DNA of 64,000 nt, from contig NZ_CH724125.1 of NCBI RefSeq assembly GCF_000153345.1, forward strand, positions 1,658,082-1,722,081. Direction: 5' to 3'. Below, one piece after another: positions 51,499 through 52,542 of the stretch (position 1 is its first letter; every line of letters starts with the position of its first letter). The notes beneath the pieces are model-generated. The model did not search any database. It had not been told where the DNA came from and saw only the letters and a program-made list of their open reading frames with translations. The DNA comes from Neptuniibacter caesariensis. Its GTDB lineage: Bacteria; Pseudomonadota; Gammaproteobacteria; Pseudomonadales; Balneatricaceae. The position numbers were made by a program, and so were the translations under genes.

Positions 51499-52542
51499 TT
51501 AAAACGCCTGATCAAACTGTTTCATCAATTCCGGAATATCCAGAATGGCACAGCGCTCTTCCATATAAGTGCCCCATAGCCACTTCCTTGGATTATCCTG
51601 AGCGGCCCAGGACACTTTATCTTCCGGGATACGGACAGATTTCACCAACTCATCACAAGCCAAAGCCCAGTGTCTTCCGCGTAAAATGATCAACTCATCG
51701 TATTTAGCCATTTCAGGATTATAACGCTCCGGTATAAGCCACAAAGCGGTATCAATCACATTAGTATCGGAGGTCATGCCTCCGAAACGACCTAAACACC
51801 AGTCATGTGCTGCATCGAGCGTTAAAGAGACCGAACTCAAATGCACCGCACCTTCGATATAATCAAAAGGTATCGCTAGATTAAGTCCGTGCATTTTAAT
51901 AAGCACACAGTTTATTTCACGCCCAGTGCCCGCATGCGCAGCTGGGGCAGGCTGTGGTTCAGGTGCTGGCTCTGGCTCTGGCTCTGGCTCTGGCTCTGGC
52001 TCTGGCTCTGGCTCTGGCTCTGGCTCTGGCTCTGGCTCTGGCTCTGGCTCTGGCTCTGGCTCTGGCTCTGGCTCTGGCTCTGGCTCTGGCTCTGGCTCTG
52101 GCTCTGGCTCTGGCTCTGGCTCTGGCTCTGGCTCTGGCTCTGGCTCTGGCTCTGGCTCTGGCTCTGGCTCTGGCTCTGGCTCTGGCTCTGGCTCTGGCTC
52201 TGGCTCTGGCTCTGGCTCTGGCTCTGGCTCTGGCTCTGGCTCTGGCTCTGGCTCTGGCTCTGGCTCTGGCTCTGGCTCTGGCTCTGGCAAATCAGTGTTG
52301 TCTTCTTCCTCAACGACAGCAACTACTTCGTCAATCTCCGCATCCAAACCTTGATGCTCTAACTGCTCTTCAGCAACTAACTGTTCTTTAATTGCAGCGA
52401 TTTCAGTTTCGGTATCAATCCCTGCATCCGGATCAGAAAGTAAGGATTCCAGATAATCAAAAACCAGCTTCTGTACGCCATGAACCTCAAGCTCATCTTG
52501 CTCAATTGAACTTTGATTATCGATCTTATTCTTCTTACTCAT
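51499..52542 (-). CDS. parP: ParP-like CheW-domain protein with a (Glu-Pro)53 rod
   Basis: 347 residues. The first ~85 are acidic and partly helical ([19 protein letters not shown]). A perfect (Glu-Pro)53 run and a short Pro/Ala segment follow. The CheW-like domain is at about residues 205-347 ([50 protein letters not shown]). The last part resembles Pseudomonas/Vibrio ParP, which links polar chemoreceptor arrays to the ParC ATPase. The start overlaps the ParC-like gene by four bases, which supports that pairing. The repeat is coded by 53 identical hexanucleotides. Confidence 0.88.
51968..52285 (+). repeat. (GGCTCT)53 perfect hexanucleotide repeat
   Basis: Fifty-three uninterrupted copies (318 bases) of GGCTCT on the + strand, coding (Glu-Pro)53 on the minus strand as GAG-CCA. 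There is not one synonymous change along the tract. It also keeps several antisense frames open (Leu-Ala, Gly-Ser, Leu-Trp), which are not genes. Confidence 0.99.

Follow-up and report, generated by a model that had tools for sequence, protein, structure and literature searches.

A hexanucleotide microsatellite encoding the Glu-Pro linker of a ParP-like protein in Neptuniibacter caesariensis and its relatives

The window analyzed here, a stretch of 64,000 nucleotides from Neptuniibacter caesariensis, contains an operon with the gene order FliA, CheY, CheZ, CheA, CheB, MotA-like, MotB-like, ParA-like ATPase, parP-like gene and DUF2802. The ATPase, the parP-like gene and the DUF2802 gene are named from Pfam and CheA from its CheW domain; the remaining names (FliA, CheY, CheZ, CheB, MotA-like and MotB-like) are presumed from the sequence. 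The parP-like gene (51499 to 52542, minus strand) encodes 347 residues and lies downstream of the gene for this CheA. It is directly preceded by a gene for a ParC-like ParA-family ATPase (52539 to 53327, minus strand; Pfam AAA_31, 164 bits), whose reading frame overlaps its start and provides the ParC-like neighbor characteristic of ParP. A DUF2802 protein (51070 to 51477, minus strand; Pfam DUF2802, 75.6 bits) is encoded directly downstream. The region from 48801 to 51073 holds a FliK-family gene (Flg_hook), followed by one for a 109-residue protein that matches only the C-terminal part of FlhB.

The 347-residue protein comprises an N-terminal part, a linker and a CheW-like C-terminal domain of the AIF type, which is the architecture of ParP. 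The AIF-type domain spans residues 211 to 347 (51502 to 51912, minus strand), as defined by a 16-sequence alignment and by Pfam CheW, which matches residues 212 to 341 with 24.6 bits, just above the cut-off of 23.5. Our AIF profile scored the ParP-like protein, one of its training rows, at 207 bits, versus 11.6 and 5.7 bits for two CheW proteins of the genome and 3.9 bits for the P5 domain of the window CheA. By the Pfam and AIF profile scores, the AIF domain is distinct from CheW. Identification as CheW itself was rejected, the protein being 347 residues long with an N-terminal extension and not a short single-domain coupling protein; separate CheW genes are found elsewhere in the genome at C5:246907 and C5:1059151. 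One genome CheW adjoins genes that we presume to be tus/dsrE-like, and by eye we take it to resemble the Photobacterium CheW. Ten columns of the AIF alignment are invariant in all 16 sequences, W111 among them; its equivalence to W305 of V. cholerae ParP, and any equivalents of L196, L209 and L212, are assumed, because V. cholerae ParP lies outside the alignment. At an E-value of 0.01, NCBIfam gave no match to the ParP-like protein and the AIF profile gave none in the PDB. AF2, run on the window protein by itself, gave a poor model (mean pLDDT 45.7), and nothing was drawn from it.

A YLESLL-type motif is found in the N-terminal part, at residues 21 to 37 (52432 to 52482, minus strand). Within the first 120 residues, motifs of this type, [YF][LIMFV]xxLL, occur at 56 of 60 uncut loci of the family. 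In the order's other families the figure is 56 of 74 uncut loci and in the class sample 39 of 87 loci, compared with 0.6% of shuffled sequences. The Vibrio study (eLife 2017, PMC5706961) describes ParP as the polar tether of chemosensory arrays, tied to the ParC pole anchor. In that account the gene adjoins parC, and the protein has an N-terminal part, a long proline-rich linker and a C-terminal AIF (CheW-like) domain. The window protein is alike in these respects, but its linker consists of a perfect hexamer array coding for Glu-Pro, and the usual downstream cheW is missing. By analogy with Vibrio ParP, the N-terminal motif is presumed to contact ParC, and binding to ParC, CheA and MCPs as well as localization of the arrays to the pole are predicted. 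The sequence-only reading of this DNA had called the protein ParP-like, and both gene order and domain order bear this out. P. aeruginosa, according to PMC12410967, is without related genes.

Residues 87 to 192 of the protein form an unbroken (Glu-Pro)53 run. It is encoded by 53 copies of GAGCCA in the Glu-Pro phase on the minus strand (51967 to 52284), none of them imperfect; the plus strand, viewed in coding phase, reads (TGGCTC)53 over the same positions. TRF reported 51966 to 52288 with a period of 6, 53.8 copies, 100% matches and no indels. The perfect 53-copy tract described from the sequence, at 51968 to 52285, is therefore real, its coordinates being one base off the coding phase. With the window's own codon use, the probability that a Glu-Pro pair is spelled GAGCCA is 0.107, which gives a log10 P of -51 for 53 identical independent spellings. 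An exact search of the whole genome for (GAGCCA)4 returned 69 matches, all within two arrays, in parP and zipA, and both are in the Glu-Pro reading frame. The zipA array, missing from the sequence-only reading, lies about 12 kb from that of parP and consists of the identical hexamer, also perfect (22 in-phase copies, 39811 to 39942, minus strand; TRF 39809 to 39947, 100% matches). It stands in the linker of a ZipA protein (39118 to 41493, minus strand; TIGR02205, 142.3 bits against a cut-off of 119.65). A degenerate 12/21-base repeat, apparently coding for Asp and Glu, was also reported by TRF at 3471 to 3527.

We found the AIF domain in 83 of 116 genomes of the family and read one locus per genome. 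At least five consecutive Glu-Pro copies occupy the linker position at 50 of these 83 loci, in 9 of 14 genera. The other 33 have fewer than five copies, eight of them being interrupted by a gap or by the end of a contig, and thus the array is not essential. Relatives without an array include L060 and L063, and the single-contig genomes G061, G062 and G072 have no parP array of at least three copies. The eight family genomes that are assembled into one or two contigs and carry an unbroken array have 18 to 48 copies: 28 in G002, 32 in G016, 20 in G022, 28 in G025, 18 in G059, 22 in G074, 48 in G103 and 28 in G109. The highest numbers, 112 (L078) and 123 (L067), both come from drafts. Of the 77 loci read from the order's other families, 12 reach at least five copies (114 genomes with a match, that is 127 minus 13 of the family). 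A class-wide sample gave none among 89 loci read (114 of 370 genomes with a match, the window's own included). The order of G437, in which 96 of 148 genomes matched, includes genomes whose AIF domains are 70 to 72% identical to that of Photobacterium; among its 30 best-scoring loci, two have at least five copies. L109 and L110 are each counted in two of these three wider samples. A whole-protein scan of genome contigs yielded eight loci and was swamped by Glu-Pro-rich stretches. From it we took Photobacterium jeanii (L049), whose protein is a ParP by gene order and domain and has 13 Glu-Pro copies; found partly through its own repeat, it enters no frequency count.

The gene cheW, usually located between parP and the DUF2802 gene, is absent from this position in the window (51478 to 51498). 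It is likewise missing at 75 of the 83 family loci, kept at seven, and one locus ends too early. Downstream of parP, cheW was found at 86 of 89 class loci and 74 of 77 order loci. In a tree of AIF domains, the family clade without adjacent cheW has a long stem branch of 1.1 changes per column. Within the family, at least five Glu-Pro copies are seen at none of the seven loci with adjacent cheW versus 50 of the 76 others. However, all 12 array-bearing loci from other families of the order have an adjacent cheW, and we therefore claim no functional link between the absence of this gene and the array.

The DNA of the arrays changes more than the dipeptide it encodes. The main unit was compared across 63 arrays with at least five copies, taken from the family, from the order sample and from L049. 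It is GAGCCA in 42 arrays, GAACCA in 10, GAGCCT in six, GAACCC in two, and GAGCCG, GAGCCC and GAACCT in one each. The tree, built on 160 AIF domains, requires at least 18 switches of main unit and at least 17 changes in array presence, counts that are approximate because columns are few and 57 of 155 forks are open. Of 52 fourfold sites in the AIF domain, 34 are different between the window and G002, yet all 53 copies of the window array and 27 of the 28 in G002 are one and the same hexamer. Over the aligned gene, G074 and G075 are separated by three substitutions and 36 gap columns, yet have 22 versus 16 copies (G075 being a draft). The expectation that length can change in frame is supported by this pair, and slippage is the probable mechanism. 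Both comparisons indicate that array DNA is being renewed, so that its purity provides no date.

Variant units within the arrays point to constraint on the protein. In 71 arrays of at least three copies, distinct variants were synonymous or replacing in ratios of 42:2, 43:6 or 46:9, depending on which of three penalties, differing in leniency, bounded the array; the array-end scoring rule trims replacements at the edges, which tilts the ratio toward synonymous variants, and copies that arose by slippage do not count as independent. By mutational opportunity the ratio would be 4:14, since four of the 18 single-base changes of GAGCCA are synonymous. Outside this set stands L102, a higher-order repeat with replacements (units of the APEPEP/ASEPEP type) and only two pure copies in a row. 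The synonymous excess inside arrays is large despite the bounding rule, the non-independence of copies and L102. The sequence-only reading had taken the lack of synonymous change as a sign of recent expansion, as opposed to old selection on the protein. The evidence does not support this: the Glu-Pro run recurs in 9 of 14 genera, spelled with different hexamers, and its variants are mostly synonymous.

Glu-Pro arrays are also found in other proteins. Matches to ZipA were obtained in 103 genomes, and among the 30 loci read, at least five copies occur in all 10 from the window's genus and in one of the 20 others; the array of G025, with 17 copies, lies outside these 30. The ZipA arrays of the window's genus (including L199 to L207) have GAGCCA or GAACCA as main unit. 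A Glu-Pro query gave a match in 16 of 17 genomes, all but two of which have at most six contigs. Among the places read, runs of at least six pure copies are hosted by ParP in 12 genomes (10 identified by locus, two, G074 and G109, by position), FtsY in four (G022, G061, G062 and G103), ZipA in two (G000 and G025), an AAA protein in two, and singly in SbcD, TonB, a TPR protein, an Hpt protein and a CAP-domain protein. These host counts cover the places read, some weak matches being left out and G540 (ParP, 10 copies) being missed; 9 of the 30 loci returned and 3 of the 7 places fetched afterwards have no such run. An exact pattern search matched at least 12 of 15 genomes and was kept out of the host counts. 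The FtsY arrays of the four relatives (L334, L352, L319 and L339) have 10 to 35 copies and stand in the N-terminal part. What these few hosts seem to share is an acidic, disordered linker, and several of them are proteins that join an anchor to a cytoplasmic domain. It is conceivable, if improbable, that the Glu-Pro hexamer array is a self-renewing rod module, in which slippage rewrites the DNA and selection keeps the acidic polyproline chain. Such a module would be deployed mainly in bridges from pole or membrane anchor to cytoplasm (ParP, ZipA and FtsY) and would make tether length rapidly adjustable.

We consider it likely that the parP array is a slippage-renewed microsatellite maintained, under constraint at the protein level, as the acidic extended linker of a polar tether. 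An in-frame hexanucleotide microsatellite would thus encode the acidic, proline-rich linker of the ParP-like protein. Copies would be gained and lost, as seen between relatives, presumably via replication slippage, and this would keep the DNA uniform. Selection on the protein would remove most replacements and retain Glu-Pro, as the within-array counts support, so that one synonymous hexamer gives way to another and the dipeptide remains. The long, negatively charged, extended linker would most likely allow the N-terminal part to sit on ParC with the AIF domain within the array, and its exact length may be tolerated within wide limits.

The dimensions and the relatives of this linker bear on how its length and charge may matter. 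A paper on TonB (PMC10771500) describes Glu-Pro repeats as polyproline-II helices, and its Glu-Pro and Lys-Pro stretches as polyproline-II rods that keep some flexibility, which supports the earlier suggestion of an extended polyproline-II-like chain. TonB is unlike the window linker in being periplasmic, with about 70 residues of Glu-Pro and Lys-Pro; the linker studied here is presumed cytoplasmic and has 106 residues of Glu-Pro only. At 0.31 nm per residue, these give a contour length of 32.9 nm, and this, together with the in-frame length change between G074 and G075, would suit a stiff ruler that fixes the distance from pole anchor to receptor array and whose copy number tunes it between strains. 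However, worm-like-chain estimates with persistence lengths of 1, 3, 5 and 10 nm come to 8.0, 13.4, 16.7 and 21.6 nm. Given these sizes and the residual flexibility of the TonB rods, the proposed stiff spacer of about 30 nm is a contour length and thus an upper limit, against estimates of 8 to 22 nm. Moreover, close relatives with 93% AIF identity have 20 versus 112 copies (both in drafts), some relatives have no array, and linkers with at least five copies do not significantly exceed the others in length (medians of 122 residues, n=41, versus 115, n=71; p = 0.41). These observations argue against fine geometric tuning, and we regard a ruler as unlikely. A possible though doubtful reading is that the 53 carboxylates matter and length does not, a polyanionic bristle that would hold the tether away from DNA, RNA or membrane. 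Among linkers whose N-terminal motif fits the pattern, the only ones in which charge is measurable, the median net negative charge is 41 in the family clade without adjacent cheW (49 of 76 loci). The corresponding values are 10 where the family keeps cheW next to parP (seven loci), 12 for the order's remaining families (56 of 77 loci) and 9 for the class-wide sample (39 of 89 loci). Several array-less family linkers are also long and acidic. On the other hand, ParPs elsewhere work with few charges, and loci with an unmatched motif fall outside the comparison.

That relatives without an array often have long acidic linkers would also agree with neutral slippage in a linker that is acidic, disordered and tolerant of change, Glu-Pro being an accident of the seed sequence, and so would the occurrence of Glu-Pro arrays in unrelated proteins (ZipA, FtsY, SbcD, TonB and others). 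The synonymous excess within arrays and the repeated change of hexamer under a constant dipeptide speak against this account and make it fairly unlikely. The tract could also have been produced by assembly. A contig end or N gap lies in or at the array at 19 of 56 family loci with at least three copies versus 4 of 27 with fewer, so that array lengths in drafts are lower bounds or unreliable, and 53 is a provisional copy number, taken from the window's six-contig assembly. In the single-contig genome G007, a foreign stretch lies inside the parP array (L018, 1222 to 1300), and we take it to resemble an Illumina adapter; no adapter 13-mer was found in L018, even with one mismatch allowed. Given the unbroken arrays in eight family genomes with at most two contigs, an artefact is highly improbable.

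The proline-rich linker of ParP is already known; what is unusual is its microsatellite form, with the meaning kept while letters and length change. Among the papers listed by literature searches, judged by title and the opening of the abstract, none mentioned Glu-Pro repeats in ParP. Haemophilus influenzae likewise has slippage-prone short tandem repeats, as PMC2651432 describes, but those are foremost tetranucleotides that mediate phase variation, whereas the GAGCCA unit keeps the frame and alters length only. A long Glu-Pro dipeptide repeat is shared with the EP procyclin of trypanosomes (PF05887, Trypan_PARP), which unlike ParP is a eukaryote surface protein; homology beyond the repeat is not claimed, and membership in this procyclic acidic repetitive protein family was rejected (54.9 bits on the repeat against a cut-off of 100). 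Recency without selection is not supported, nor is the ruler idea favored. The parP array is a bacterial case in which microsatellite DNA turns over fast and the protein product is retained, and therefore repeat purity alone is no sign of youth or of absent selection. The relatives also offer a natural length series of one polar tether, ranging from zero to over 100 Glu-Pro copies, which makes tether length versus charge testable for chemosensory arrays.

At L264 (G703), the AIF frame reads the parP array as Ser-Gln, an apparent frameshift beside the array that is either a sequencing error or a real change. Other short repeats, of the Ala-Pro, Ala-Glu and Glu-Gln-Val type, occur in the ParP linkers of L044 (G024), L049 and L084 (G061), and in L049 Glu-Pro stands beside one of them, Ala-Glu.
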